Virus record (IMG/VR): IMGVR_UViG_3300027721_000073
Coordinates: 1 to 24,477 of that record
DNA length: 24,477 nucleotides
Source of the DNA: a virus
Direction: 5' to 3' (one strand)
A program made the translations under genes and the position numbers. The notes beneath the pieces were generated by a model. It worked only from the letters and a program-made list of their open reading frames with translations. It ran no database searches and was not told where the DNA came from. Shown one piece after another: positions 5,201 to 19,922 of this stretch. Within the stretch, counting starts at the first letter, position 1, and each line of letters opens with the position of its first letter.

Positions 5201-8200
5201 CCACCCGTAGACGGGCGTGGGGATGATGGCGAGCTGCACGCTCATGTCCATCGACGTGCCGTTGCCGTACGTGGCGTAGTACTGCCTGACGAGCGTCGGC
5301 TCCGTGTAGCCGGAGGTGCGGATGGCCCGCAACTGGGCGTAGTTGGTGCCAGCCTGGCTCAGGTAGCTGAAACCAGCCGGGTAGGCGAGGACAGACCCGC
5401 CGGATGCGAAGGCGTTGAAGAAGAAGGCCGTCAGGACTTCCTGCCCCGGGTAGACCACGAGCGGCGACGTGTAGTGCGGGAGGTAGGAGAAGGTCGGGAT
5501 GGTCCGCGTCTCGACGTGGGTCCGGTACATGCCCAGGCTGGCGTCATAGGGCTTGGGCGTGGCACTGGCGTTGTAGCGGTACGCCGCGACAGATACCGCC
5601 ATCGAACTCTTGAACCCGGCGTCCCAGTAGAACGTGTAGGTGGCGGGGTCGTACTGACCGCGCCTCCTCGTGAAGATCCAACCCGCATGAGAATGGTCAT
5701 CGGTCGGGAAGTAGGCGTACTGCGTCCAGCCCGGTGACCAGATCTCACGTTGGGACCCCTCCTCGTCACCGGAGATGAACGCGACGAGAAGGTCGTTCGT
5801 GCTCGTGGCCGGGGAGGTGACCGTGACGCTTCCGCCTGCGTATCCGGCTGCACCGTAGTTGCCCAAGTAGTAGACGGCGTTCTGCCGGTTCGGCAGGGAG
5901 CCCAGGACAGTGGCTGACTGGACGTAGTCATACGTGAATGTCGGTGGCAGGACGATGAGCGCATCGACATCGAAGAAGGTCGGTGAGTCGAGGTTCTCGA
6001 TGTTCAGCCAGACACCATCGAGGTAGTACTCAGCCCTGACGGCGATCCAGTAGGTGCCAGCCGCCAGGGTGACGCCAGCCCCCGGGGGCTGCGCGGACGA
6101 ACTCCCCATCGGGTATCTGGTGCCGTAGGCATACCCGGATGCGGAGTCGATGAGCGAGGACAGGTAGTCCTCCTCGTCGTTAGAGGCGTAGTTGCTTCCG
6201 GCGTAGTGGATGGGCTCACTGTCAGCGTTCGGCAGGGAGTCCCACAGCGTCAGCTCCGTCTCTGGGAGGTACGTCGAATACGGGACGATGTAGCGCGACC
6301 CGGACGTATCGATGCGGAAGCGCGCCCGCTTGGGGACCTCCAACTTGAGCCAGCCTGTAGCGTTCCCGGGGCTGGAGTAGTAGAGGGGGTAGGGGTCGTT
6401 CACGTTGTACGTGAGCAGGGAGAAGTCCCCGAAGGCGAACAGGGTCTGCCCCGGGGCGGGGGAGGTCACGGCGACGGCATCGACCGCCTCATCGGTGAAT
6501 GTCGAGAAGCCTTCGCTCGGAGCGATCAGGGCATCGAGCCGGAAGATCGGCCCACGGTTCTCGATGTTGATGGCGATGTAGCCGGTCTCGGCTCCGCCCC
6601 CATAGGGCCAGACGGCGATCCAGTAGGAACCAGACTCGAGGGTCAGCCCTGAGCCGTAGTTCGCGTTCGAGCTACCTCCGACGTAGAGCGTCCCCAGTGG
6701 TGCATCCGTACTGGTGTCGGAGAAGCCCGGTCTGTAGTAGTACTGGGCCTGGTCGGACCCAGGGCCGTCGCTGTAATGCCATGGGTCCTGGCTCGTTGTA
6801 GGTGGTGCTTCCTGGGGCCCCCAGATGGCGAGATCCGGGTCGTCGTAGTAGCTGTCGAACGACTCGATGAAGAAGAGACTCGCCTGTAGGACATCGAGCC
6901 TCATCCACCCGGAGGGTCCGGTCCGCAGCCCGTATACGGGGGGGTCGGTGGCATCCGCCGTGAAGTCCTCGAAGGACCCCCGGACACTGATGCTTTCTCC
7001 GATGTCTGGCGCGAGGATGCCCGGTGCCGTCAGGCGACTGTCAGACAGGTCGTAGACAGGCCCCGTGGAGGAGACGTAGGCGTCCACCGAGAACGTCTCG
7101 TGGATGAGGGAGATCTCAGCCGCAGCTTCGAAGAAGGACTCGAAGTACTCCCCGAGTCGCACCCTCGACTCGAGTGCGAACGACCCGACGGACTCCCCGG
7201 CGATGACGGCGTCCGCCCGGAAGCCCGTGATGGAGGCATCCAGCGCGAAGGTGCCGGGGATGACCCACCTGAACCACGCATCGACGGCGCGTGAGCCCGT
7301 GCCCTCCTTCAGGAGGGAGGCAGCGACATTGAAGGAGGCACCATCGTTGGGCGCGCTCTGGAGGAGGACCGTCAGCATCCCCCTGGAGTCGCTAGTGAGG
7401 ATGTTGAAGCCGCCCGTGACCGGGCCCACGCCGACGCTCGGCGTGGTTCCCAGGCTGCCCCAGTAGCTGGGGGCCGCGGTGCTCCTGAGCAGGAAGCCTT
7501 CGGTCGTCGTCCCTGCTCCTGGCGATGAGCCAGATGCCGGGGTGCTCCCGTAGTAGCCCGTCTCGAGGTGGACCGCGACCGCCGACGAGTAGCCTGCCGG
7601 GTAGCGTTCGAGGGTGTTGCTCAGGTACTGGCCGTTGTGATTGGCGGAAGCATGGAAGACGCTGCGGGCGATGCTCACGGGGTTCTGCGAGCGCAACATC
7701 ACCGAAGCGCCGCGAACGGTCTTCGCGTTATCGACGCGGATGATGTCGTCTGCCCTGCGTTGCGTGAGGTCGGTCAGGACCCAGAGTTCCCCGGAGTAGT
7801 ACTCGTGGATGACGTACGTCAGGGGCAAGCCGCCATACGTGACCGAGATGGCCTGGTTGCCGCTCGACCCGAACAGGGCGACGACCAGGGCGCTGTCGCC
7901 CGACACCATCGGATGTGCCCACGAAACGTCGGTGAGGTAGTTCGCGGAGACCACTGCGCCCGAGGAGACGATGCCGCTGCGGAGGGGCGCGAGGATGACC
8001 GCATCGACGTGGATGTGGTCGGGGAAGTGGGCATCGAGGGAGAACGAACCCCCGAGGGTCTCCAGCTGGGCCGCATCCGCCGTCGTGGAGAAGACCGCGT
8101 AGTTCTCGTGCCGGAACCAGGACCCCGCGCTGAAGGTCTTATCCCAGTGCTGGTGGCGGATGGCATCCACCGTCTTCCCAGGCAGGAAGGCGCTTTCCTG

Positions 8201-9091
8201 CATGAGCATCGACCAGTGGTAGCGAGAGCAGGAGGCCGTGAAGACCGCGAAGCCGCCCGTGATGCTGCTGGTGTCGGGACCCTGGATGGTCAGGACCGTC
8301 GCGACGCTGTTGCTGGCGTTAGTGTCGCCACTGGAGAGCCAGTAGCCGGTCCCGTACGGGTTGGCGGCAGCGTGCGGGTCCCCGCCCTCGCCTCCGGCGA
8401 TGCTGAAGAGCGCCTTGATCGTCGGCTGTGAGAGGGTGTCGTTCAGGGTCGTGATGTAGTTGCCTGCGACCCATCCGGTCCACGAGCTGACGGCGTTGAC
8501 GGTCGCGTAGGTGATGGCCGCGTGCCCTGAGAGCACCGTCGAGGACGCGAAGCAGTTGGCTGCCATCCCTGTGACGCGGATGACATCGTCGGCCCTGCCC
8601 GACAGGTCAGAGAGCGTCCAGACCTCGGTGTACCGTCCGTAATGGTTCGGCTGGTATCTCGCCGTCAGGGCCTTGTTGCCGTACGTGACGGCGGACGCGT
8701 AGTCGTTGTAGGCCGACAAAACGACGACGATGGCTTTGGCGTTCGCCTGGGGGACGTGGGTCCACGTCGGGTTCGCCATCTCCACGGATGCGTGGGTGTA
8801 ATCCATCCACGCATCGCCGCTGTAGGACTGCTCCTTCTGGAGGACGGCAGCGGCGGTGAACGAGCCCGTGATGCGAAGGTTCTTCTCGGCGTCGATGGTC
8901 CACGGCGTGCCAGCCCTCGGGACCTGGACCATGGAGTCCATGCGGAAGTACCAGGACCGCTCCCCGTAGCGGATGGCATCTACGCGGAAGTCGCTGAAGT
9001 AGCCGATGCGGGCGTAGAGGCTGAAGCCCCTCTCGGCCTGAGCGAGCCCGCTTCGGCCTAGTGTGAGTCTGCCGAGGACGGACTCACTCAT
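2273..9091 (-). CDS. Giant tail-tip protein: F-x-V-D-A repeats, beta-sandwich and PPC-like modules, C-terminal hub copy 2
   Basis: A 2272-residue protein, probably part of the tail tip. Modules in order: F-x-V-D-A repeats (20-100); beta-sandwich A (100-300); repeats (305-370); beta-sandwich B, similar to A (378-590); repeats (590-720); PPC-like unit 1 (716-855) and unit 2 (896-1045); a third sandwich (1050-1292); dense repeats (1295-1690); a small module VGSIIVIAGEEYVIVAVIDG (about 1697-1745); then a hub module (1775-2225) paralogous to the gene at 10018-11547. The hub carries an extra helical hairpin (about 2046-2095). The modules look carbohydrate- or surface-directed, which suggests a fibre or adhesin; this is inference. 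The ATG at 9091 has no good ribosome site and follows the previous stop by 3 bases. The end overlaps the next gene by ATGA. Confidence 0.7.
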   Translation of the reverse strand: MSESVLGRLTLGRSGLAQAERGFSLYARIGYFSDFRVDAIRYGERSWYFRMDSMVQVPRAGTPWTIDAEKNLRITGSFTAAAVLQKEQSYSGDAWMDYTHASVEMANPTWTHVPQANAKAIVVVLSAYNDYASAVTYGNKALTARYQPNHYGRYTEVWTLSDLSGRADDVIRVTGMAANCFASSTVLSGHAAITYATVNAVSSWTGWVAGNYITTLNDTLSQPTIKALFSIAGGEGGDPHAAANPYGTGYWLSSGDTNASNSVATVLTIQGPDTSSITGGFAVFTASCSRYHWSMLMQESAFLPGKTVDAIRHQHWDKTFSAGSWFRHENYAVFSTTADAAQLETLGGSFSLDAHFPDHIHVDAVILAPLRSGIVSSGAVVSANYLTDVSWAHPMVSGDSALVVALFGSSGNQAISVTYGGLPLTYVIHEYYSGELWVLTDLTQRRADDIIRVDNAKTVRGASVMLRSQNPVSIARSVFHASANHNGQYLSNTLERYPAGYSSAVAVHLETGYYGSTPASGSSPGAGTTTEGFLLRSTAAPSYWGSLGTTPSVGVGPVTGGFNILTSDSRGMLTVLLQSAPNDGASFNVAASLLKEGTGSRAVDAWFRWVIPGTFALDASITGFRADAVIAGESVGSFALESRVRLGEYFESFFEAAAEISLIHETFSVDAYVSSTGPVYDLSDSRLTAPGILAPDIGESISVRGSFEDFTADATDPPVYGLRTGPSGWMRLDVLQASLFFIESFDSYYDDPDLAIWGPQEAPPTTSQDPWHYSDGPGSDQAQYYYRPGFSDTSTDAPLGTLYVGGSSNANYGSGLTLESGSYWIAVWPYGGGAETGYIAINIENRGPIFRLDALIAPSEGFSTFTDEAVDAVAVTSPAPGQTLFAFGDFSLLTYNVNDPYPLYYSSPGNATGWLKLEVPKRARFRIDTSGSRYIVPYSTYLPETELTLWDSLPNADSEPIHYAGSNYASNDEEDYLSSLIDSASGYAYGTRYPMGSSSAQPPGAGVTLAAGTYWIAVRAEYYLDGVWLNIENLDSPTFFDVDALIVLPPTFTYDYVQSATVLGSLPNRQNAVYYLGNYGAAGYAGGSVTVTSPATSTNDLLVAFISGDEEGSQREIWSPGWTQYAYFPTDDHSHAGWIFTRRRGQYDPATYTFYWDAGFKSSMAVSVAAYRYNASATPKPYDASLGMYRTHVETRTIPTFSYLPHYTSPLVVYPGQEVLTAFFFNAFASGGSVLAYPAGFSYLSQAGTNYAQLRAIRTSGYTEPTLVRQYYATYGNGTSMDMSVQLAIIPTPVYGWPVDAFIFRGILVNAVKGRSYAKTFTVNAIRDDKHVSGDFTVDAYYEHGGVIPLSAIVIGPVLSTKPINAVKLQHDYGVGSFGVQYQWAIARRFILKSAVGRETISSGTVDAVISGRPIRVDARIHVPSNPYAFFYSDSIRKRNMTSSFRVDAAIRSRTRTGAFTVYAITMVPVSQGTITGSFSAGAWVYALWGTVVFSGEDGWPIDAVVDSYWSETTFTIDAETTLPDRYGSFTAGADIAASGDTRGAFAASSLLGSAGTGLFYANAYVTQGYFRLFADIAGVFRLDALLGVLSGSGSFVASAVKRTSVTTSVTANAVLADAAGDYRAIHVDASLTSSQRGAFALLGALVRGASGSFSLDARLGGAITLDAFIRTGFYVNAYIAFGELVVWPPSQEGTGGTVTGGVFTDPTADFDDSLVGSIIVIAGEEYVIVAVIDGQTLVIEEVGGGTPPDVAPSPWSVPSGSATDAYGGEPPVTRSNHVRILWARPFTDDWHDITGDTLWSATRFTQSARVGAGTFELHLEGAYPSFIGGEEIRVEVDGLVVFGGYTTDVERGYVFSDLSTPKTVLHGTDYNIVLDKLVVYNAEWDEDHGGVGHYENWTPFAKGVSDRYIIRTIARDYLSRMPGFNFHTYVDEIESPAPTKRWTMQPGTTLRDVLTEISRITEGMWWIDPYRNLHYHDRNSVTAPFPITDGDGGISCRELSVSSDISIVSNDVFAWGTEAYQPEGGGIIYSHQEADATWSVLYWEDKIENVQERIDAIRAIPYDERTTKQRADLSALKRAKAVYQQKLASAEARGGQGSVQRFGRWQYAEFRQDIYKQNALDRRATAIMRRYGEPVVKASAVIFDHGFQAGQVAFVSSLTHAYADEMPIREMTLEFATIKEPDDRYRAVPRYRLMLGLDPEEPWNVYQFLPFNYEYSRPGIHVNPPAGWEISPSTTDSTSILDDFTRDYESDTDFGISTSDRVETRVWEEEA
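2417..3769 (-). other. C-terminal tail hub module (hub copy 2) of the giant protein
   Basis: Residues 1775-2225 parallel the separate hub protein at 10018-11547: VLHGTDYNIVLDKLVVYNAE, TLRDVLTEISRITEGMWWID then PYRNLHYHD, RELSVSSDISIVSNDVFAWG, FGRWQYAEFRQDI, and HAYADEMPIREMTLEF. Relative to copy 1 it has an inserted helical hairpin (ENVQERIDAIRAIPYDE to QQKLASAEARGG), and it lacks the terminal fibre-type hairpin module. A structural hub usually begins a tail-tip protein; here it ends one. Confidence 0.68.
4022..5209 (-). repeat. Dense array of F-x-V-D-A-x-I beta repeats in the giant protein
   Basis: Residues 1295-1690 are made almost wholly of units of about 10-30 residues with the core F-x-(V/L/I)-D-A-x-(I/V/L), for example TFTVNAIRDDKHVSGDFTVD, SSFRVDAAIRS, GSFSLDARLG and AITLDAFI. 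About two dozen units are visible here, with more between modules further upstream in the protein. In DNA the V-D-A core gives a recurrent gcatcga on the plus strand (for example at 4089 and 4119). Each unit probably adds one or two strands to an extended beta structure. Confidence 0.7.
5957..6946 (-). repeat. Tandem PPC-like modules in the giant protein
   Basis: Unit 1 (residues 716-855; bases 6527-6946) and unit 2 (896-1045; 5957-6406) match throughout: VYGLRTGPSGWMRLDVLQAS versus LYYSSPGNATGWLKLEVPKR, then DLAIWG versus ELTLWD, GLTLESGSYWIAVWP versus GVTLAAGTYWIAVRA, and INIENRGPIF versus LNIENLDSPTF. The G-x-Y-x-I-x-V strand and the overall layout resemble bacterial pre-peptidase C-terminal domains. 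F-x-V-D-A repeats separate the two. Confidence 0.58.
7322..8794 (-). repeat. Duplicated beta-sandwich module (copies A and B) in the giant protein
   Basis: Copy A (residues 100-300; bases 8192-8794) and copy B (378-590; 7322-7960) share W-x-H-P/V, an A-(I/L)-V-V-x-L strand, SAVTYGNKALT versus ISVTYGGLPLT, EVWTLSDLSGRADDVIRV versus LWVLTDLTQRRADDIIRV, and the closing ITGGFAVFTAS versus VTGGFNILTSD. F-x-V-D-A repeats lie between them. The match is at protein level and divergent, which indicates an old duplication. A carbohydrate-binding or adhesion role is inferred. Confidence 0.62.
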
Positions 9092-10017: not shown

Positions 10018-11547
10018 TCACAAGGTCCCTGATGCGTAGTACTCGACGTAGACCCGCTTGCCACCCGCGGGGTCCTCGGACAGCTTGAAGGTGCCGTTCT
10101 CCGGGTTCGTCTGAAGGAAGCCCACCGTGCCCGTCTCGGGGTCGAGAGCGCTGACTTGCTTGATGCCACCCACGTAGACGGTAAGGCTGTCTCGGATGTA
10201 GGCCGTGACGCATTGGTAGCGGCGCCCGCCGATGGACTGTGGGTACTCCTTGATGAGGGTGTACCGCTCCACGTTGGGGAGGGTCTCGTCGGGTCGGGCA
10301 CGGAGGTCCTTGACGTAGAAGTCGGGCTGCTTGAGGCCCCGGTTCTCCGGCCGCTTGAGGGCCAGCAGCAGGCCCCACGGGTCCTGCGTGTCGTAGGAGC
10401 AGGAGACCCGGTACTCCACCACGTCGGGGAGGCGGAAGTTCATCGAGATGGAGCGGATGGGGAGGTTGTCCGCGAAGCCGTGGGCGTCCATGCGGATCCA
10501 GATGATCTGGCCCGGGTAGAGGCCTGAGCGGTAGGTGGTGAAGTCGGCGCTCATGCCGGGTTCACCCTCCTGGTTGATGACCTTCTCCGCCCTGGCGTTG
10601 ACCGCCGTCTGCGTCCAGCGGGAGGCGAGGATCTCGCTGTACTGGAAGCGCCCGTAGGCGGCGACGGACGCCTCGTTGACGAGGTGACGGTACTTGAGGA
10701 GCTTCTGGCGCGACCCCGGGGCAGGGTTGAGGTCACCAGCCCAGATGATCACGTCGTCTTTGATGCTGCTGATGGAGGTCGTGACCGTCAGATCCTTGAC
10801 GTTCTCACCCGTCACGCCACCCGTGATCTCGGCTGGGTCGGCGTCGCCCACCCAGAAGGGTGCGAGGTCGGTGTCCTGCGCCTTGTAGACGAGGTAGCCC
10901 TCGGGGTCCACGTACCAGATGGTCGATCCCGGCATGGAGCGGTTGACGTTGCGGCTGACATCGGTGAGGAAGTCGCGCAGGGTCCCGCCCGCGGGCGGAG
11001 GTGTGAACGTCCCGTCAGGGTTGATCTGGCCGACGGGCTCGATGCGGTTCGTCTTGAGGGTCGGTGACACGAGGCCGATGTCGAAGTCGTTGAGCATGGC
11101 CTTGATGTAGTCGTCGTCCATGGTGTTCTTGGGCACGGCCACCACGTAGCCCTTCGACACGCCATCGTCATAGACCTTCTTGCGCCTGTACGTCCCCCCG
11201 CCGTCGGGGTATCGCTCGGGATGCTCGTGGTTGTACATGACCAGCTTGTCGAGGAGGATGTTGAGGTCCACCCCAGACAGCACCCACTCACGCACGGCCG
11301 CGTCTGCGAAGGCGTAGCCCCTCGCGATGTTGAAGAGGTAGCCCCTCCACCGACGCGCACCGTCGATGTCGAGGGTGATGCTGCTGCCCTCCTGGAAGGT
11401 GTGCGCCCCGGCGCGCACCGCGATGGTGCATGTCCCCGGCTGGGCGGAGGCAGACGAGGTGAAGTTGGTGCGGGCGTAGATGACATCGGCGCTGATGTCC
11501 CACCCGCCGACCGTGATGGTGATGGTCGAGCGCGTCGGGTCGGCCAT
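10018..11547 (-). CDS. Tail hub / baseplate protein (hub copy 1)
   Basis: A 509-residue tail-tip protein directly after the tape measure, the usual place for Dit/Tal-type proteins. The N-terminal third is a beta barrel unit (ITITVGGWDISADVIYARTN, then ITLDIDGARRWRGYLFNIAR), followed by VLSGVDLNILLDKLVMYNHE, TLRDFLTDVSRNVN, WYVDPEGYLVYKA, and a C-terminal hub part with SGLYPGQIIWIRMDAHGFAD then NLPIRSISMNF. Every one of these blocks recurs in order at the end of the giant protein at 2273-9091, so they are paralogues. Residues 429-509 add a hairpin module (SLTVYVGGIKQ, ETGTVGF, VYVEYYASG) of the type that ends many phage fibre proteins. The start ATG is 1 base after the tape measure stop and lacks a strong ribosome site, so coupling is likely. 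Confidence 0.65.
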   Translation of the reverse strand: MADPTRSTITITVGGWDISADVIYARTNFTSSASAQPGTCTIAVRAGAHTFQEGSSITLDIDGARRWRGYLFNIARGYAFADAAVREWVLSGVDLNILLDKLVMYNHEHPERYPDGGGTYRRKKVYDDGVSKGYVVAVPKNTMDDDYIKAMLNDFDIGLVSPTLKTNRIEPVGQINPDGTFTPPPAGGTLRDFLTDVSRNVNRSMPGSTIWYVDPEGYLVYKAQDTDLAPFWVGDADPAEITGGVTGENVKDLTVTTSISSIKDDVIIWAGDLNPAPGSRQKLLKYRHLVNEASVAAYGRFQYSEILASRWTQTAVNARAEKVINQEGEPGMSADFTTYRSGLYPGQIIWIRMDAHGFADNLPIRSISMNFRLPDVVEYRVSCSYDTQDPWGLLLALKRPENRGLKQPDFYVKDLRARPDETLPNVERYTLIKEYPQSIGGRRYQCVTAYIRDSLTVYVGGIKQVSALDPETGTVGFLQTNPENGTFKLSEDPAGGKRVYVEYYASGTL

Positions 11548-11548
11548 G

Positions 11549-14500
11549 TCAGTAGCTCGGGCGCCGCAGGCCCATCATCTGACCCTTCCGGCCAAGGGCC
11601 CGCTCCACTTCCTCTGCCACACGGCGAGCGAGGTGCGCGACATCGCGCTCTTCCCTGACGACGGGCCTGTCGATGTTGATGGTCAGGTTCACGGGACCGC
11701 CGCCGCCACCCATGTTCAGCATCCCCATGCGCGGGTTGCGGAGGATGGCGACCGTCTCCGTCCCGGCCTCTCCGAAGATGGCGGATGTCGGGGTGGAGTA
11801 GGTGCCCACCATACCCGTGGCCTGCTTGCCCATCCACTTGTCGCGCAGCTCCCGGGCCGTCGTCCCCGAGCCCGTCGTGGTCAAGCCCTGGCTCTCAGCC
11901 AGCTCCCTGGCCGTGGGCTGCCTATTGGGGGTCCTGACGGAGCCCAGCGGGTCGAAGTTCTTGTCCCGATCCTCAAGCTCGAACCTCGCACGAAGCTTGC
12001 GATCGACCTCCTCGAAGGTCAGCCCCAGGCTCGCTACGCCCTCGATGGTCTTGTTGATGATGTCGGCGTGCTTACGCTCGGCTTGGTTCGCGTAGGTTGC
12101 GGCCTTGTTCAGCCAGTCACCCATCTTCTGGGAGGCAGCAGCGATCTGCCTCTGCGCGACGGTCGTCTTGACTTCGGCATCCCTGGCCGTCTGCATGACC
12201 TCGATGGCCTTGCGAGCGTCGAGGGCGTTCCGCTGTGCGTTCTCGACCCAGATCTTCCCGGCGATAGCGAACTGCTGCTGGGCAAGGGGAAGCTGCTGCT
12301 GGCTGATGCCGTACTGCTGCGTGCTGAGGCCGAGTTGTCGCTGCCGGATACCGGCCGCGATGACGGCTTCTCGCTGGCGTGCGAACCGCTCCTCGCCCGT
12401 CTCTCCGGGCGCCTGGAACTGGGCCACAGCGAGACTGGTGGCGATGCTGCGCCGTTCAAGCGCAAGCGACAGCCCCTGTGCGATGAGCCCGATCTTCTGG
12501 CTGGCGAGCCCGAGGCTCTGACTGGCTCGTGAGGTCAGCCACTCTTCCCGCTGGAGATAGCCAAGTCGGGTGCCACCGACCTGTCCGAGCATGCCGACGG
12601 CATCCCCGAGGGAACGCTGGGCGATGCGGATCTGGTTGAGGTAGCTCGTGTCTGCGGCCACCTTCTGGGCAGCCATCATGTCCTCAGTGAGCCCAGCGAT
12701 GCTCACCGAGAGCGCCGTCGCCTCAGCCGTCGCCACGCTGAAGGCACCAGCGTTCTGTGGGGTCAATCTCTGGATCTCGTCACGCTGGTTCGCCAGACCC
12801 TCCGCAGCGATGCCCTTGATGTCGGCCTGGAGTGCCTCGGTGTCCGCGAAGCTCCTCCGGGCTTGCCGCTGAGTGGCCGCAGATGCGCCCACGGTGGAGA
12901 CACCAGCAGACGGGCTGATGAGGGGGTTCTGGGTGATCTGCTGCCACGTCGAGAAGGGGATACCAATGTCCACCTGGCGCTCGGTGAGCGCCTGGGCGCC
13001 CTGCCACTGGGCCCCCATGACGCGAGCTTGCTCCTTCGACCACGTAGCGGGGTCCTGGACGCCAAGGCCGACTCCGAGGACCACAGCGGCAGCGATGGCC
13101 TGGGTCGCATCAGCGAGACTGCCGTCGTTGAGCTTGAAGATGATGCCCGTCGAGGTCAGGTTCCTGAGGTCTTGGTATTCGACACCCTCTGGGATCGCGG
13201 CCATGGCCGCGCCGATCTCAGCCTCGCTCTGCGTCTTCGTAACGCTCACGCCAGCAGCCTGCATAGCGTAGGCGCGGCCAGCCTCATTGCTCTGGATGGC
13301 GTAGCTCCGCCTGCCCCTCTCGAGAGCCTCGGCCTGGTCGCCAACCAGCGCGTCGTAGAGGCTCTGCGTGTAGCGGTCGCGACCCATCCCCGGGGTCACC
13401 TCCCAGCCCTCTCCACCAACAAAACCGAGTCGCCCGAGAGGGCTCCCCTCCCGGTACGAGGCGGTGTCGGGCGTCAGCTTCATGGCGGCGCCCGCCAGTT
13501 GTTCGATGACGCCCTTGCCGCCGCCAAGCAGCTCACCCGCAAGTTCGCCCCCGAAGAGGCCCCCGAAGCCACCCATGGTCCCCGAGGGCATCCCGCTCCG
13601 GTTGGCGCCGAGGGCCGACTCGATGGCCGTCTCCCACTTGCCCGCGACTTCAGCGCCAGCCTTGACGGCAGACTCGAGCGTCAGTGGCCCAGCGGCAGCC
13701 TCGTTGAGCCCAGTGCTCAGGTTGTTCTGGATGGCGTAGGCATTCATCGTGGCTTCGGTGTTGCCCAACTGCTCGCGGGTCTGCTTGCCGAGCTGGGTCG
13801 TCGTCGCCTCCGACTGGGCCTCGAAGTTCATGAGGCTGTCAACGATCTTCCTGGCGGCGGGGTCAGCCGCCTGCATAGCCATGCCGACACCTTCCATGGC
13901 CCACGAGTAGACCTGGATGCCAGCCATGACCTTGCCAAGACCGACGAGACCCTGGGTCAGCCCGGGGACACCGGCCCGCAGCGCGTCTGACTCCTCCTCG
14001 CGGGCCTTGTTCCAGTCCTTGAGCACCGGGTTCGCCTTGACGAGGGTATCGATCTCGGCCTGGATGGGGGCCTTGGCGTCGGCGCGGGCAAGGGTCAGCT
14101 TGTCTTCCAGGGCCAAGTATTCCTTGATGGGCCGAGAGTCGGGCATGCCCTCCTCGATGCCTTGCCTCGCCCTGAGGGCTTCACGCTGCCGAGCAAGATT
14201 GACCATCTCCTGGCCCCGCCCCCGCCCCATGAAGGTAGAAGCAAGCTGGGCCACGTAGCCACGAGGCGTGCGAGCGGAGAGCGCCTGACCAGCCTCGGAG
14301 AGCTGCTGGGCCCTCATGCGGTCCTGGGCAGCCCGGTCTGGGTCCTGACCTGGGGTCATGTAGGGGTCGGTCTGCGTCGGACGACCGCGCCGCCCGCCGC
14401 CCGCGGCCCCACCTCCGCCGCCTCCGCCACTGGGGGGCGAAGTATCGACGTTCTGGGCGCTCAGGTTCCTGACATCGAGCTGCTCGATCACCGCCGGTCC

Positions 14501-17500
14501 AGCGGCCTGGAACCCACCAGTCATGACAGGTACGGGAGGCAGCGGCCCCGACTGCGGGATGCCGCCGAGCCTTCCCCTGGGCCCACGGAGGCGCCATGTC
14601 TGGGTCAGCGTCGAGAAGACCCGATCCGCGAACTCGGACACCATCGGCTGCCTGTCTTGAGACCTGAGACGCCGCTCATCCTCCCAGTCTCCGACCGTCG
14701 TGCCCCCCTCCGCACGCGGCACCTGTGCCATCAGTCGGTTGGGGATGATGACGCCATCCTCGGGAGGAGCGAACAGCTCCCCGCCAAGGTCGTGGTCTCG
14801 GCGCTTGCCGATGACTTGCATGCCACCCGCGGCCTTGGGGATCTGGTCCATGACCTTCTTGGGGATCATGTGCGCGAGTCGGTTGGGGACGAACAGCTCC
14901 TCACCGATCTCACCGACGATGTAGAGACCGTCGAGAGAGCCGGGGCCACCCGTGGCCCTCCGTTGCCCCATCACCCTGGCGAGGTTGGTCGCCGCCTCGA
15001 TGTTCGCGGTGTCGGGGTTCCAGTACTTGCCCTTGCCGGGAAGCTGGGACCAGGGCATGTCGGCGTAGGCGCTGGCCTCCTGGAGGATGCTGGCGGCGGA
15101 CGCACGGTCATACGCGAGCAGGGACCTGAAGTGACCCTTCTGCATGGCGTGAGGACCATGGCTGGTCAGGTCGAGGAACATCTCCTCAACGTCGTACCCC
15201 TTGAGGTCCGACAGCAGGCGGCTGCGCTGGCTGAACGTCAGCGGCGATGACATCTGGCCCTCGAAGAAGCCGGGGCTGAAGCCACCCATCCGCAGGAAGC
15301 CGCTGTCCAGCATCTTCTCGTAGACCTGTTCGTAGGGGGTGTTGGTCCCGACGATGTGGCGGGCAGCGTAGTGGGGGATGGTCCGCGTCCCCTTCACCAT
15401 GCCCGTGCTCTCGTACATGGGCCCCATGTGCAGCTTCTGGTACATGCCAGAGCCGAGGGCGCTGAAGTCTACGTACTTCCCGCTGGGCGCGAGCCAACCA
15501 GCGGCCATGGGATCCTCCGTGATCCCGAACATCTCAGCGGCCTTGGCCTCGAGGGCCGATGCCAGCTTCGACGGTTCACCCAGTCGGGCCATGAGGCCAC
15601 CCTGGGCGTGCTTGGCCCTCTCCTTGAGCTTCTCTTCCGCGATCTGCCAGCCCATGATGGGCTCCATCTCGTGCATCATCGAGACGAAGCCGCCTTGCTG
15701 CATCCCCGCGCCGCGCCAGTTGACCCACGTCGCAGCCTGCAACTGGGCGATGCGAGGCAGGCTCTTCTTGAGGGAACGAGGGAGCTGGGCGTGGACGTTG
15801 TGATACGCCTCGTTCATGGCGTCGCGGAACACGCCGACACCCGGTGACTGCATGTAGGCACCAGCAGTCGCGATCTGAGCGGCTAGCGCATCAAGGGTGG
15901 CAACATCGAGGTTCCCGCCCAGGTTGGCGTCGAACGGCACGACCTTCGGCCCAGACAGCCACCTGTGGATGCGGTCCTTGGATGTTGCGATCTGCCACGC
16001 CTTCTCCCCGCCACCAGGAACACCCGAGGGATGCATCCTGGGCAGGCCCATGACTCCCTTCGGGAGCTTTACGTTGCCTGGGCCAAGGAACTGGTCGATC
16101 CACTCACCAACTCGCGGGAGCAGCGCGTCAGCGTCCAGCTTCGTCGGGTATTCGCCACGCATGGCTCCTTGCAACATCGCGGCGGTATGGGCCACGTTCG
16201 AGGCGAATAGCATCTGCGGGCTGGTTGCCGCCAGGACAGCTCGAGCGCGACGTTCGCTAGGGTAGCCAGAGTGTCGGGCCGCTTCGCGAGCGATCTTGCC
16301 AGCGATGGGATACCAGTTCTCACCGATGTACACATCGTGAGGCGACAGCCGGTTGACGACATCCCAGATGTTCCGCTCCATGGCCGACGTTGGGCCGTGC
16401 CTCGCGAGGTCGGTCGCCCCCAGGATGCGCCCTGCCATAGCGTGGACCGGGCCCCCGCCCTTGCGGATGCCGAACCAAGAGGGCGGCATGAAGTGGGGGA
16501 TGTAACCGGCCGCATCGGGGGCGAGCATGTGCTCGTTGGGCATGACCCAGCCCTGGAACTTCTTGCGCGGTTGCTGGATGAGCTGGCCTGCGGTGGGGAT
16601 CTTGTCGATCCCCAGGCGCCTCGCGACAGCGAAGCGGTGGTTGCCATCCTCGATCTTGCCCGTGTTCCAGTAGGGGTCGTGCGAGAACGCGATGGGCTTC
16701 GAGGGGTCGAAGCCCTCTGCGTAGATCTTCTCGGTCAGCTCATCGAGGTAGCGGGTGTCATGCGCGTAGCGCGGGTGGAACTCGCGGTCGTGCGTCCTGA
16801 ACTGCTGGAGGGTATCGACGCTGACCCACTCGGTGATGTCCTTGAGGCCCTGGCTGCGCCAGTCCCGGTCCATCCATCCGGCGCCTGGGGCAAGGGTGCC
16901 CGGAGTCAGGAGGTGGGGGTAGCGGCCAGCCTTCCAGCCCTCCTTCCCGAAGAGGGCTCCACCGCCAAGCTGGCGCCGCATGGCACGGCTGTACATGATC
17001 TGCCTGAGGCGCTCCGCCGAGGCACGCAACGGCTTACTGGAGGCATACCACGTCGCCTGGTCGGCGGCGGCACCGGGGTCGATGCCCTGCGCCTTCAGGC
17101 GGTTGAAGCGGCCGAGATCGAAGGCTGCCTTCTCTCGCCCGCCACGCAGGAGCATGTCCGCTTCGCGCTTGTTGCTGACGACGGTCGAGGGGTCGATATC
17201 GATGAGGCCGGTCTCTGGATCAAGCCAGGTCCCCACGAACGGAGCACCAGCTTGACGCTGGGCCCAGACGGCCCTGATGAAGCCACGGACATCGTTCTGG
17301 GGGACGTGGTACGACTCGGCCCCAGGGAGGTAGGCGGAGACGCCCAGGGCATGACCCGTCGTGGGCACGGAGATGCCGGGGATGGCGGGCATCGTGGCGC
17401 CGCCACTGGCGATAGTGGCCTTGTAGGCCATGGAGCCGATCCCGGCATGCTTGATACCGCCGCCCCTGGAGCGCCTGCCTGCCATGGCGTGGATGCGCTG

Positions 17501-18115
17501 GTCATGCTGTCGCTGGCGAGAAGCATCGACCGCAGCCAGCTCGACCTCGAAGCGCCGCGTCTCTTCCTGCTTGCGGTAGAAGTCCTTGATGGAGGGGTGG
17601 ATGAGGCCAGCCGTCTTGGGGACGAAGACCTCTGCCCTGCGCTCACCGACGATAACGGGTCGGTTGGCCTCGACGGGGCCACCGAGGGCCTTCCTGGGCA
17701 GTGAGCCCTGAGCGCGCTCGATGGCTGCCGCGGCAGCCACGCGGCCCTGCTGGGGCGTGATGCCGTACTGCGTGGACAACACGGAGCCCATGAGGCTCTG
17801 GATGCTGTTCTTTCCCGTGGTGGCGAACTGCGGGTTGATGGTGACGGGGATGCTCTGGAGCCCCGCGGCGACTTGCTTGCGGAGCTTCGCGATGGACCCT
17901 TCGCTGACCGACAGGGTGACATCGACGGGCATGGCGGAGCCAGGAGCCTTGCCACCGGGCTTGCCGCCCGCGTGGAGACTCCCGACCCCGGCGCCTGCCT
18001 GGGATGCTTGCTTCTGGAAGGCGTTCAACTCCCCGCTCGCAGCATCCAGCCCTGAGCTGAAACCGCTCGCGTCAAGAGTGAGCCGTACGCCGATGGTGCT
18101 GACTTCGTCAGGCAT
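11549..18115 (-). CDS. Tail tape measure protein with large embedded cargo region
   Basis: A 2188-residue tape measure that sets tail length and passes through the tube at infection. The N-terminus (IGVRLTLDASGFSSGLDAAS) is typical of the family. Residues about 1255-2100 are the helical tape, with hydrophobic stretches near 1385-1420 and 1670-1690 and a Gln-rich repeat at 1925-1950. The C-terminus has GEAGTETVAIL (2115-2125) and a VNLTINIDRP strand plus amphipathic helix, also typical. Residues 150-1140 are unusual. They carry VIVGERRAEVFVP (154-166), a compact block at 270-345, a ParB-like domain at 425-512, a DUF7178-like region at 575-803, another block at 860-1050, and IVGEIGEELFVP (1066-1077). 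A Gly-rich linker lies at 1229-1243. The ATG at 18115 has GGGGAGG at proper spacing. Confidence 0.87.
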   Translation of the reverse strand: MPDEVSTIGVRLTLDASGFSSGLDAASGELNAFQKQASQAGAGVGSLHAGGKPGGKAPGSAMPVDVTLSVSEGSIAKLRKQVAAGLQSIPVTINPQFATTGKNSIQSLMGSVLSTQYGITPQQGRVAAAAAIERAQGSLPRKALGGPVEANRPVIVGERRAEVFVPKTAGLIHPSIKDFYRKQEETRRFEVELAAVDASRQRQHDQRIHAMAGRRSRGGGIKHAGIGSMAYKATIASGGATMPAIPGISVPTTGHALGVSAYLPGAESYHVPQNDVRGFIRAVWAQRQAGAPFVGTWLDPETGLIDIDPSTVVSNKREADMLLRGGREKAAFDLGRFNRLKAQGIDPGAAADQATWYASSKPLRASAERLRQIMYSRAMRRQLGGGALFGKEGWKAGRYPHLLTPGTLAPGAGWMDRDWRSQGLKDITEWVSVDTLQQFRTHDREFHPRYAHDTRYLDELTEKIYAEGFDPSKPIAFSHDPYWNTGKIEDGNHRFAVARRLGIDKIPTAGQLIQQPRKKFQGWVMPNEHMLAPDAAGYIPHFMPPSWFGIRKGGGPVHAMAGRILGATDLARHGPTSAMERNIWDVVNRLSPHDVYIGENWYPIAGKIAREAARHSGYPSERRARAVLAATSPQMLFASNVAHTAAMLQGAMRGEYPTKLDADALLPRVGEWIDQFLGPGNVKLPKGVMGLPRMHPSGVPGGGEKAWQIATSKDRIHRWLSGPKVVPFDANLGGNLDVATLDALAAQIATAGAYMQSPGVGVFRDAMNEAYHNVHAQLPRSLKKSLPRIAQLQAATWVNWRGAGMQQGGFVSMMHEMEPIMGWQIAEEKLKERAKHAQGGLMARLGEPSKLASALEAKAAEMFGITEDPMAAGWLAPSGKYVDFSALGSGMYQKLHMGPMYESTGMVKGTRTIPHYAARHIVGTNTPYEQVYEKMLDSGFLRMGGFSPGFFEGQMSSPLTFSQRSRLLSDLKGYDVEEMFLDLTSHGPHAMQKGHFRSLLAYDRASAASILQEASAYADMPWSQLPGKGKYWNPDTANIEAATNLARVMGQRRATGGPGSLDGLYIVGEIGEELFVPNRLAHMIPKKVMDQIPKAAGGMQVIGKRRDHDLGGELFAPPEDGVIIPNRLMAQVPRAEGGTTVGDWEDERRLRSQDRQPMVSEFADRVFSTLTQTWRLRGPRGRLGGIPQSGPLPPVPVMTGGFQAAGPAVIEQLDVRNLSAQNVDTSPPSGGGGGGGAAGGGRRGRPTQTDPYMTPGQDPDRAAQDRMRAQQLSEAGQALSARTPRGYVAQLASTFMGRGRGQEMVNLARQREALRARQGIEEGMPDSRPIKEYLALEDKLTLARADAKAPIQAEIDTLVKANPVLKDWNKAREEESDALRAGVPGLTQGLVGLGKVMAGIQVYSWAMEGVGMAMQAADPAARKIVDSLMNFEAQSEATTTQLGKQTREQLGNTEATMNAYAIQNNLSTGLNEAAAGPLTLESAVKAGAEVAGKWETAIESALGANRSGMPSGTMGGFGGLFGGELAGELLGGGKGVIEQLAGAAMKLTPDTASYREGSPLGRLGFVGGEGWEVTPGMGRDRYTQSLYDALVGDQAEALERGRRSYAIQSNEAGRAYAMQAAGVSVTKTQSEAEIGAAMAAIPEGVEYQDLRNLTSTGIIFKLNDGSLADATQAIAAAVVLGVGLGVQDPATWSKEQARVMGAQWQGAQALTERQVDIGIPFSTWQQITQNPLISPSAGVSTVGASAATQRQARRSFADTEALQADIKGIAAEGLANQRDEIQRLTPQNAGAFSVATAEATALSVSIAGLTEDMMAAQKVAADTSYLNQIRIAQRSLGDAVGMLGQVGGTRLGYLQREEWLTSRASQSLGLASQKIGLIAQGLSLALERRSIATSLAVAQFQAPGETGEERFARQREAVIAAGIRQRQLGLSTQQYGISQQQLPLAQQQFAIAGKIWVENAQRNALDARKAIEVMQTARDAEVKTTVAQRQIAAASQKMGDWLNKAATYANQAERKHADIINKTIEGVASLGLTFEEVDRKLRARFELEDRDKNFDPLGSVRTPNRQPTARELAESQGLTTTGSGTTARELRDKWMGKQATGMVGTYSTPTSAIFGEAGTETVAILRNPRMGMLNMGGGGGPVNLTINIDRPVVREERDVAHLARRVAEEVERALGRKGQMMGLRRPSY
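14966..15538 (-). other. Domain in the tape measure, residues 860-1050 (unassigned)
   Basis: It begins MFGITEDPMAAGWLAPSGKY followed by VDFS, a layout similar to the A-G-Y-x-L-P-D-G-x-x-x-D-F-S unit of several large phage proteins. It continues with RTIPHYAARHIVGTN, a Gly/Phe-rich GFLRMGGFSPGFFEG, and helices rich in Ala, Tyr and Trp up to the next GG...VGE motif. The function is not recognised. It is clearly globular and unlike the helical tape after residue 1255. Confidence 0.35.
15707..16393 (-). other. Domain resembling the phage DUF7178 type, embedded in the tape measure
   Basis: Residues 575-803 are helical with conserved-looking motifs: NWYPIAGKIAREAARHSGYP, RARAVLAATSPQMLFASNVA, then GEKAWQIA, HRWLSGPKVVPFDANLGG, VATLDALAA and LQAATWVNWRG. 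The order A-x-x-S-P-x-x-x-x-x-x-N, G-x-K-V-x-x-F, then V-x-x-L-D matches, from memory, free-standing actinophage proteins annotated DUF7178, whose helical layout recalls HhH DNA glycosylases. Both the family and any glycosylase link are inference without a search. Confidence 0.42.
16580..16843 (-). other. ParB/sulfiredoxin-like domain embedded in the tape measure
   Basis: Residues 425-512 follow the ParB-N pattern: ITEWVSVDTLQQF, then a pair of strand-helix units (YLDELTEKIYAEGFDPSKPI), then GKIEDGNHRFAVARRLGIDK and IP. DGNHR followed by A-x-x-L-G and a strand beginning IP is the signature of the fold, in which this loop forms the nucleotide-binding and catalytic site of ParB-type CTPases and nucleases. 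The fold call is good; activity is unknown. Confidence 0.62.
17081..17308 (-). other. Compact domain in the tape measure, residues 270-345 (unassigned)
   Basis: The block reads as a folded unit: VRGFIRAVWAQRQAGAPFVG, TWLDPETGLIDIDPSTVV, then a helix ending in REKAAFDLGRFNRL. The run of aromatic, Gly and Asp residues is unlike helical tape. The style (a G-T-W-x-D-P-E-T-G turn, I-D-x-S, then A-x-F-D-L) recalls domains in large multidomain phage proteins, but I cannot name the family and assign no activity. Confidence 0.4.
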
Positions 18116-18134: not shown

Positions 18135-18706
18135 CTACGCCGACTCTCCCGTCAGAGTCTCAGCGTTGAAGTCCATGATGCCTGCGCCTCCGGTGACTGC
18201 GTCGTCGTCGGTGGGCTTGGCGTGGACCTTGATCCAATCCTCGCGTAAGGCGAGGTAGTAGTGAAAAGGGAGGGCTGCCACCTCGTGCGGCCAGACCCCG
18301 TACCAGCGTGCGATACGGAAGATCAGGTCACGGGTGGTGAGTCGTTTCCCTTGGACTCTTCCTCTTCCTCTTCATCTGCTGGCTTGGACTCAGGCTCATC
18401 ACCATAATGCATCTTGTTGACGGTCTGGTTGAGCTTCAACACCACGCGCATGGGGAGGTTGGCGAGGGCCTCTGCCGTGAGCTTGGGCTGCACCGAGCAG
18501 CGGATCACCATGAGCTTGAGGAGCAGGGCGTTATCGACCTGTTCGTCCTCTTCCCCGGTGAGGGGGTTCACCTTCGTAGTGGTGGCCTTCTTCACGAGGT
18601 CCTCGTAGTCACCGATGGACAGCTCGCGAAGGCGGTAGGAGACGCCGCGGATGACGACGGTCTCTTCGGAGAAGTCGGGGGTCAGGGCGTGCGCTGCGCG
18701 GGGCAT
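18135..18706 (-). CDS. Tail assembly chaperone, -1 frameshift (GT-like) product
   Basis: The heptamer GGGAAAC at 18350-18344 is in the correct phase (AAG-GGA-AAC, codons 119-121) for simultaneous -1 slippage to GGG-AAA. Reading on in the -1 frame gives 69 further codons without a stop: RLTTRDLIFRIARWYGVWPH, then EVAALPFHYYLALREDWIKV, then an acidic end, stopping at TAG 18135-18137. The fused product would be 190 residues. The extension has no early ATG or ribosome site of its own, fills otherwise empty space, and ends 20 bases before the tape measure ATG. A GAGGAAGAGGAAGAG purine run just upstream could act as a Shine-Dalgarno-like stimulator. Lambda uses GGGAAAG at the same place. Confidence 0.75.
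18323..18706 (-). CDS. Tail assembly chaperone, short (G-like) product
   Basis: Predicted 127-residue protein directly upstream of the tape measure gene, where lambda gpG and its analogues lie. Such proteins bind the tape measure and recruit tube subunits, and are absent from the mature tail. The N-terminus (TVVIRGVSYRLRELSIGDYE) has the short beta unit seen in many of these chaperones. A helical core follows (NALLLKLMVIRCSVQPKLTA, EALANLPMRVVLKLNQTVNK), then an acidic run of six glutamates before the C-terminus. Translation stops at TGA 18323-18325, a few codons past a slippery heptamer that gives the longer form. Confidence 0.72.
   Translation of the reverse strand: MPRAAHALTPDFSEETVVIRGVSYRLRELSIGDYEDLVKKATTTKVNPLTGEEDEQVDNALLLKLMVIRCSVQPKLTAEALANLPMRVVLKLNQTVNKMHYGDEPESKPADEEEEEESKGNDSPPVT
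18344..18350 (-). promoter_or_regulatory. Programmed -1 ribosomal frameshift slippery site GGGAAAC
   Basis: The minus strand reads G-GGA-AAC in the phase required for X-XXY-YYZ slippage, near the 3' end of the tail chaperone gene. The zero frame ends 19 bases further on, while the -1 frame stays open for 69 codons. This placement is the established position for tail chaperone frameshifts. I see no obvious downstream pseudoknot by eye. Confidence 0.75.
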
Positions 18707-19023
18707 AGTGTCACTCCTTCGATCAGAAGGCTCTTGTCCTGGAGGACCGTTCGCATGCCAGGGACTTGCTCGAGCCTGTACTGCTTGAATGGGTTGAGGT
18801 TGACGAGGATGCGTTTCTCGTACTCATCGTCATCCCAGAGGGCCTTGGACAGGAACGAAAAAGAGGCGTGGAGATCGTACAGAGCAGCATCCTGCCCGGT
18901 GTCTCCACGCCTCGTGAGCGTCCAACTTGTGAACTCCCCGACCTTGGCTCCAAGGAAGGGGATGTCAACGATACCGGCGGGTCGATATGTCCCTGACCGG
19001 ATCAGCTTGAAGAGATAGCCCAT
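18682..19023 (-). CDS. Small conserved-position tail protein, function unassigned
   Basis: A 113-residue protein between the tail tube and the assembly chaperone, start MGYLFKLIRSGTYRPAG. It has mixed alpha/beta character, with a LYDLHASFSFLSKALWDDDE segment and a basic, hydrophobic C-terminus. I do not recognise the family. Genes in this slot in other siphoviruses are often small tail-assembly or tube-associated proteins, so a tail role is inferred from position only. Of three candidate starts, the ATG at 19023 has AGG six bases upstream; the ATG at 19029 has AGG with no spacing, and an upstream GTG at 19089 lies inside the intergenic hairpin with no ribosome site. Its end overlaps the next gene by 25 bases in another frame, which suggests coupling. 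Confidence 0.55.
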   Translation of the reverse strand: MGYLFKLIRSGTYRPAGIVDIPFLGAKVGEFTSWTLTRRGDTGQDAALYDLHASFSFLSKALWDDDEYEKRILVNLNPFKQYRLEQVPGMRTVLQDKSLLIEGVTLCPAQRTP

Positions 19024-19046
19024 TGCCATCCTGCTGCTAGGGACTC

Positions 19047-19091
19047 GAGTGGGGGGCGGCAGCCGGGAGGGGCTGATGTCACCCCCCACTC
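19047..19091 (-). other. 10-bp GC hairpin after the second tail tube gene
   Basis: GAGTGGGGGG at 19047-19056 is the exact reverse complement of CCCCCCACTC at 19082-19091, with a 25-base GC-rich loop. It occupies the gap between the tube stop (19101) and the next start (19023). No U-tract follows on the minus strand (next bases GAGTCCCTAG), so simple rho-independent termination is unlikely; attenuation or message stabilisation is more plausible. It resembles the hairpin after the capsid gene in placement and in its six-G/six-C stem. Confidence 0.55.
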
Positions 19092-19100
19092 AGGTCGGGT

Positions 19101-19526
19101 TTACGGGGTCAGCGACCCGCTGGAGAAGACGACCCAGGCGCCAGCTGCACGGAAGTTGCCCGTGCACTTGATGGCGTCGGTGTTGGAGGCGGTGATGGAG
19201 GCGTCCATGAGGCCAGGGCCATAGGCGATGAGCAGCTCAGGCGACGCATCGTCACCGTAGAGGTAGATCTGGATGGCATCCGAGTTGGCGGCGTTCACCT
19301 GAGCGTCACCCTGGATGTCAAGGAGACCAGCGAAGGTCCCCTGGATGTCCTTCAGGCCCACGAGGTAGGTTTTGTTGACATCCCCGAAAACGGTCGAGTC
19401 AACGTAATCGCGGTTCAGCGAGAGCGTCCACTCGGTCTTGTTGACGACCTTGACCCCGGAGCCCTTTGGGCCTCCGAGATAGATAGCACCCCTCTTGCCA
19501 TGAAGGGCAGTTCCGACTGCGGCCAC
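19101..19526 (-). CDS. Tail tube protein, paralogue 2
   Basis: Predicted 141-residue tail tube protein, a tandem paralogue of the preceding gene. Shared landmarks are VVNKTEWTLSLNRDYVDSTV, NKTYLVGLKDIQGTFAGLLD, DASITASNTDAIKCTGNFRA and AGAW. It is about 16 residues longer, with an extra glycine-rich loop near residue 20 and a C-terminal VVFSSGSLTP extension. The start is GTG at 19526, supported by GAAAGGAAC about 7 bases upstream and by the match of the first residues (A..LHGKRGAI versus LNVVHGKNGSI) to paralogue 1. A 10-bp GC stem lies just after the stop, which is often seen after abundant structural genes. The third related copy lies in the head-assembly gene at the right edge. Confidence 0.78.
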   Translation of the reverse strand: MAAVGTALHGKRGAIYLGGPKGSGVKVVNKTEWTLSLNRDYVDSTVFGDVNKTYLVGLKDIQGTFAGLLDIQGDAQVNAANSDAIQIYLYGDDASPELLIAYGPGLMDASITASNTDAIKCTGNFRAAGAWVVFSSGSLTP

Positions 19527-19544: not shown

Positions 19545-19922
19545 TTACGCGATGGTCCAGGTCCCAGCGGCTCTGAAGTTTCCAGAGCATCGGACTGCGT
19601 CCGTGGCAGAAGCGGTGACAGTGGCGTCAAGGTAGGCGGGGCCGGATGCCACGAGGGTGCTGTCGCTCGCGTACAGCTGGAAGGTGTATGCGACACCGTC
19701 CGAGTACTGGAGTGCCAGCTCCGTGGCCGTGTCGAACAGCCCCGAGAAGGTCCCTGCGATGTCACGCAATCCCGCGGCGTAGACCTTGTTCCCGTCACGG
19801 AATGTGGTCGTGTCCGCGTAGTCGCGAGTCATGTTGAGGGTCCACTCGGTCTTGTTCGTGACCTTGCTACCGTTGATCCAGATGGATCCGTTCTTGCCGT
19901 GGACGACATTCAGGTCAGCCAT
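19545..19922 (-). CDS. Tail tube protein, paralogue 1
   Basis: Predicted 125-residue major tail (tube) protein. The N-terminus is a beta hairpin with a GS.VTNKTEWTLN segment, followed by RDYADTTTFRDGNKVYAAGL, RDIAGTFSGLFD, then DATVTASATDAVRCSGNFRAAGTW at the C-terminus. The same pattern recurs in the gene immediately downstream, and the pair sits between the tail terminator and the assembly chaperone. These proteins stack as hexameric rings around the tape measure. The ATG at 19922 is clear. Which of the two paralogues forms the bulk of the tube cannot be told from sequence. Confidence 0.75.
   Translation of the reverse strand: MADLNVVHGKNGSIWINGSKVTNKTEWTLNMTRDYADTTTFRDGNKVYAAGLRDIAGTFSGLFDTATELALQYSDGVAYTFQLYASDSTLVASGPAYLDATVTASATDAVRCSGNFRAAGTWTIA

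Follow-up and report, generated by a model that had tools for sequence, protein, structure and literature searches.

The window analysed here covers 24,477 bases of the record of a tailed phage and carries on its minus strand a series of late genes that runs from capsid, adaptor, neck, tail terminator, two tube-like proteins and chaperones through the tape measure protein (TMP), a YqbQ-like hub, a fibre, a giant protein of 2272 aa and a holin-like gene. The TMP gene (positions 11549 to 18115; all window features given below are on the minus strand) is one open frame of 2188 codons, encoding 2188 aa. It is identified as a tape measure by its place, since a long open frame lies here between tail chaperone ORFs on one side and the distal tail and hub genes on the other, and this synteny is kept across its relatives (the sister phages, see below). 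The hub gene follows directly (10018 to 11547; PF24032, E 2e-7). On the other side (18323 to 19089) two ORFs resemble tail-assembly chaperones, one at 18323-18706, which matches PHROG 344 (E 9.6e-5), and one at 18682-19089. Both are conserved in sisters; they are in different frames with a 25-base overlap, a candidate for a programmed frameshift of the G/GT kind. The two tail-tube-like genes (19101-19526 and 19545-19922) are adjacent, and both are kept in all sister contigs checked. The 2272-aa protein (2273-9091) contains many short FxVDAxI-type repeats and its C-terminal part resembles the YqbQ-like hub; it may thus be a second hub joined to a repeat fibre.

The TMP begins with a conserved N-terminus (residues 1-205, 17501 to 18115; 36-49% identity in sister TMPs), which includes a first VGExxxEVFVP motif at residues 156-166. 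Second and third VGE/ELFxP motifs, recognized by HMM at residues 1053-1138 (14702 to 14959) and 52-72% identical in several sisters, mark the end of the cargo, and the C-terminal tape, delimited by length comparison, extends over 910 aa from an RTPRG anchor (residues 1278-2188, 11549 to 14284). The initial annotation, which concerned positions 14966-17308 (TMP residues 270-1050), proposed that at least four globular blocks joined by glycine-rich linkers lie in the front half of this protein. The four blocks it listed were all found, between the conserved N-terminus and the C-terminal tape, and joints such as GGG and GGPVHAMAG do separate them. The proposed borders at 575-803 were almost exact (576-802), and the others were refined from 270-345 to 225-339, from 425-512 to 417-555 and from 860-1050 to about 850-1050. 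Continuous long helices, which would have spoken against globular blocks, do not occur across residues 205-1050 in the AF2 models, which start at residue 205 and have low confidence over 205-425. Profile and structure searches of each block identified a PHROG 17808-like domain, a ParB/sulfiredoxin (Srx) domain and DUF7178, and left the fourth block without a fold match. All of the blocks recur in the TMPs of related phages. The same architecture is present in many contigs independent of one another, among them five whose TMPs are complete, which rules out an assembly artefact.

The best defined block is DUF7178 (residues 576-802, 15710 to 16390), which matches Pfam PF23802 with E 2.1e-18 (67.4 bits against a cut-off of 27) and PHROG 3842 with E 3.6e-19. 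Its AF2 model has an all-alpha core with pLDDT >90, and structure searches of BFVD matched it to stand-alone phage proteins (E 2e-5). The usual form of the family is in fact a stand-alone protein of about 200 aa, from which the window copy, fused in a TMP, departs. All 71 DUF7178 loci from a generic scan, whose pattern would miss TMP-fused copies, were ORFs of their own or fragments, about 100-250 aa long, and a profile search of genome contigs with DUF7178 gave no match. The window copy has invariant Lys724 and Asp742, 18 residues apart. This pair is kept, 17-19 apart, in all TMP copies that cover the site and, by a crude scan, is spaced 17 to 22 in the stand-alone proteins; the spacing resembles that of the GxGxKT...VD motif of endonuclease III (18 apart). 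Furthermore, Kumao gp115, a member of the family, is annotated as an N-glycosylase. Human MutY was the only DNA glycosylase in the Foldseek list (rank 49, probability 0.44), PF00730 (HhH-GPD) had no match at E<=10 in 12 records, and an hhalign comparison of DUF7178 with HhH-GPD was marginal, three of 100 shuffles reaching the real score. The assignment of DUF7178 as an HhH-type DNA glycosylase/lyase is only suggestive, with about an even chance of being correct. CKS-like matches at residues 767-820 were dismissed as chance.

Block B1 (residues 225-339, 17099 to 17443) is a full-length relative of early actinophage proteins of PHROG 17808, aligning end to end with proteins of about 110-140 aa at 30-34% identity to the Arthrobacter and Microbacterium forms. 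An HMM built from ten stand-alone proteins gave the TMP 20.3 bits, whereas the highest score among 200 shuffles was 3.2; in reverse, an HMM of the TMP copies matched Yvonnetastic gp202 (E 4e-6). Sister TMP copies match PHROG 17808 at 6e-6, and the window copy was not listed by hmmscan against that profile. The assignment, a sequence-profile relation over the full length, is drawn from sequence because the AF2 model of residues 205-425 has low confidence. PDB sequence searches with the B1 and DUF7178 profiles gave chance matches only.

The block at residues 417-555 (16451 to 16867) was modelled by AF2 with pLDDT of about 80-92 over the core, and Foldseek related it with probability 1.00 to sulfiredoxin, ParB, Noc, KorB and SerK. 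Pfam ParB_N gave 13.7 bits, below the curated cut-off of 26.3; on the modelled fold together with the conserved DGNHR motif, we assign the block to the ParB/Srx superfamily, in agreement with the early suggestion that a ParB-like block here belongs to a nucleic-acid-acting fold family. Block B4 (residues 850-1052, 14960 to 15568), recognized by its conservation in sisters, carries a conserved AGxxxPSGxxxDFS motif and is modelled as an alpha+beta domain without a long helix (pLDDT 69.7, pTM 0.72). No PDB fold matched B4 with E<=0.001. TSEN-like hints (probability at most 0.51, poor TM-scores) were set aside.

The neighbourhoods of stand-alone relatives indicate where such proteins are used in other phages. 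Of the 12 kinds of phage in which tblastn found a stand-alone DUF7178 gene, 11 have it no more than about 3.5 kb from a record end and only SIO1/Siovirus does not; the carriers span cyanophage A-4L, roseophage CRP-1 and Mycobacterium and Gordonia phages. In the four actinophages Yvonnetastic, Kumao, Rockstar and BabyRay the DUF7178 gene adjoins a B1 gene near the right genome end, and two genes away from the DUF7178 gene of Herbertwm lies a ParB-like gene. Thus, three of the four blocks are relatives of genes in probable early regions of other phages, which is strong evidence but not absolute because genome or record ends can be arbitrary for circularly permuted phages. The initial annotation had speculated that the tape measure delivers early-acting domains; as far as the families are concerned this is partly supported, the relatives of DUF7178 and B1 being early-region proteins elsewhere.

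Direct scans with the full TMP or the hub found no relatives; the lineage was opened by the capsid protein and then extended with the TMP N-terminus, which yielded some two dozen related contigs. Among 50,697 phage records, TblastN with the TMP and the capsid protein found none, so that the lineage is absent there at that sensitivity. The major capsid proteins of the sisters are 62-87% identical to that of the window, and the capsid, adaptor, neck, terminator, tube and chaperone proteins together range from 35 to 87%, mostly above 60%. N-terminus, VGE motifs and tape are common to the sister TMPs, and in most of them the middle is a different string of modules, bracketed in every complete TMP by two conserved TMP segments. 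From N to C, the order is B1, ParB, DUF7178, B4 in the window; ART-like, ParB, B1, DUF7178, JAB-like, zincin-like in L121; GNAT-like, HPr, B1, DUF7178 in L123; HPr, B1, JAB-like, DUF7178, HPr in L124; GNAT-like, B1, ParB, DUF7178, HPr in L132; ART-like, DUF7178, ParB, zincin-like, B1 in L134; and B4, DUF7178 in L131. Exactly one DUF7178 is present in all ten TMPs with complete cargo. The HPr domains are firm (Pfam 1e-25; TIGR01003 above cut-off in L124), the GNAT label is a weak Pfam match (0.023), and the ART, JAB and zincin labels are at motif level only, HExxH zincin-like motifs being seen by eye in some sisters; PDB searches with the JAB-like and ART-like modules gave no support. The HPr domains inside the TMPs have an intact GLHMRPS phospho-His site (L124 aa 273-355 and 1186-1268; L132 aa 1403-1477). 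The injection route of lambda is the PTS permease ManYZ, so that these domains may have a connection with the PTS.

Two sequences recur between modules and may be recombination joints: a 55-aa joint (GPLxRRLxGLP..PEWxRRARxxxLP), present for instance in L132 (aa 1346-1399), L108 (aa 333-389) and L124 (aa 216-271), and the 29-aa segment FQTAADWANDPFMAIM. An integrase was looked for in six sister records and none was found. The TMP frame of L120 (9989-11896) ends within the cargo, after 636 aa, by either a sequencing frameshift or a real truncation. The record of L117, L118 and L131 (130,935 bases) contains two capsid-to-TMP modules with different TMPs (open frames of 2152 and 2218 aa); this 131-kb viral contig represents two tandem phages, a chimeric assembly or a single phage that has two tail modules.

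Pairs of nearly identical sisters show the exchange itself. L122 and L123 share about 99% identity over >11 kb upstream and 98.6% up to TMP residue 783; beyond it their DUF7178 alleles differ, after which the identity returns at 87%. L126 is without exactly 281 residues, corresponding to the JAB-like module of L124 (aa 527-807), with flanks 91% and 87% identical; between L103 and L108 one module near the N-terminus is swapped within flanks 93% and 97% identical; and L094 and L123 have a common GNAT-like module with 92% DNA identity beside an N-terminus of 80%. The cargo is thus modular and exchangeable, as both the module strings and these clean losses and swaps demonstrate. A large survey of phage protein mosaicism found a mosaic signal in tape measures and confirmed no genuine recent case (PMC10684548); the pairs described here are clear cases of such recent exchange of TMP modules. 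Pairwise dN/dS was 0.06-0.25 for DUF7178, 0.06-0.25 for the GNAT-like module, 0.09-0.16 for ARTd, 0.06-0.38 for HPr and mostly 0.13-0.32 for B1 (up to 0.6 against a truncated copy), compared with 0.10-0.75 for the TMP N-terminus, so that constraint on the cargo is no weaker. Since these ratios are low (mostly 0.06-0.3), the cargo is maintained under purifying selection and is not decaying.

We consider it likely that the window encodes a genuine TMP with an N-terminal docking array of exchangeable early-phase domains, a chassis like that of polyvalent proteins and injected with the DNA. For the lineage as a whole, the balance leans towards the TMP being a general injection chassis, in which about 4-9 early-acting domains, one of them always a DUF7178 enzyme, form an evolvable array of cassettes that is shuffled by recombination at conserved joints and delivered, together with the DNA, before transcription. 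The C-terminal ~900 residues would act as ruler, plug and channel, and the N-terminal ~850 residues would carry B1, the ParB/Srx domain (of NTPase or nuclease type), DUF7178 and B4. The C-terminal helix of the lambda TMP is in the tail tip (PMC10721106), and by this analogy the N-terminal cargo would lie toward the head. Lambda TMP was labelled at the inner membrane during injection, and TMPs leave the tail (PMC13190303); the cargo would therefore enter the cell with the first DNA. The TMP would exit the tail ahead of the DNA, bringing the cargo to the inner-membrane or cytoplasmic side, where it would act before any phage gene is transcribed, on the entering DNA or on host DNA or nucleotides. 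That the cargo relatives are proteins which other phages make first after infection suggests that here they are injected ready-made with the DNA. We infer ejection with the TMP, cytoplasmic action, chemistry and tail length. Delivery has points against it: the narrow tube must be passed, so that globular domains must unfold or sit near the neck, and the cargo might be cut off before assembly.

The latter possibility, that the N-terminal half is cleaved in the producing cell and acts late, in assembly or lysis, without being injected, is unlikely but is the strongest of the alternatives. TMP processing occurs in other phages, repeated VGE motifs and flexible joints flank the cargo, and some sisters have zincin-like motifs. 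However, no protease was recognised in the cargo of the window, DUF7178 and B1 have their stand-alone relatives at early genome ends and not in late regions, and conserved TMP segments stand on both sides of the cargo in every complete TMP. It is still less probable that the blocks are structural, serving as packing domains or as anchors to the neck or tube and performing no enzymatic function in the new host. In its favour, no chemistry is known for B1 and B4, and ParB/Srx folds can be mere nucleotide-binding domains; but an anchor should not be freely exchangeable, and the identity, number and order of the modules vary while the tube, neck and chaperone genes stay conserved. The phospho-His sites of HPr and the Lys/Asp pair of DUF7178 are kept.

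The lengths of the TMPs bear on the ruler. In six complete TMPs the tape, from the RTPRG anchor to the C-terminus, is 879-1046 aa, and the cargo between the VGE motifs of complete TMPs is 874-1483 aa; total length differs by about 730 aa among sisters with the tape near-constant. A near-constant tape with variable cargo fits a ruler limited to the tape, which at 0.15 nm/residue would correspond to about 135 nm for the window. TM4 is a published counter-example to such a tape-only ruler, since there an enzyme motif inside a TMP is counted: deletion of 114 aa (mt3) shortened the tail by about 20 nm (PMC1796659). That the whole 2188 aa is likewise an ordinary long tape, its blocks spanned and counted, is very improbable given the alpha/beta and compact all-alpha AF2 models in place of continuous helix and the ~730-aa differences among sisters.

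The closest precedents are the polyvalent proteins for the concept and the TMP-derived effectors of contractile systems for the chassis. Polyvalent proteins, which occur in phages and in conjugative elements (Iyer et al. 2017, PMC5512222), likewise combine several disparate domains in a single large chain encoded among virion genes. They are inferred to be injected with the DNA, as the window TMP would be, judging by the behaviour of lambda TMP (PMC13190303). The repertoires overlap in ParB and, in the sisters, in GNAT and, by motif, zincin, ART and JAB; here, however, the chassis is a bona fide tape measure, and DUF7178, B1, HPr and B4 are additional domains. Neither "tape" nor "glycosylase" occurs in the main text of PMC5512222, and tape measures are not mentioned there. 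Sle1 and Tme of Streptomyces contractile-injection systems (PMC13277306, PMC11126660) are likewise TMP-derived with a reconfigurable variable effector domain, but this is a single C-terminal domain in phage-derived particles from a capsid-less contractile cluster, whereas the window has capsid and neck genes, and in its lineage the modules, 4 to about 9 of them, lie on the N-terminal side of the tape. In the TMP of mycobacteriophage TM4, the mt3 peptidoglycan hydrolase motif (PMC1796659) is also an enzyme-like domain acting at entry, but it is an enzyme of the cell wall, lies within the tape and is counted in the tail length, and there is no shuffled cargo of intracellular type. MuF-linked effectors, T4 Alt and the N4 virion RNA polymerase (PMC5512222) are virion-carried, injected and act at once, but they are carried in the head and are not part of a TMP. 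Cargo made of several modules in shuffled order, placed N-terminal to a phage tape, appears to be undescribed in the literature searched, most subscription journals and preprints lying outside it. If our reading is correct, the TMP of a tailed phage would be a programmable vehicle for effector delivery, beyond its functions as ruler and channel. It would provide a second, tail-based route beside the head-carried effectors and a natural template for tail-based protein delivery, and it would allow one to ask what activities a phage requires ahead of its first transcript.
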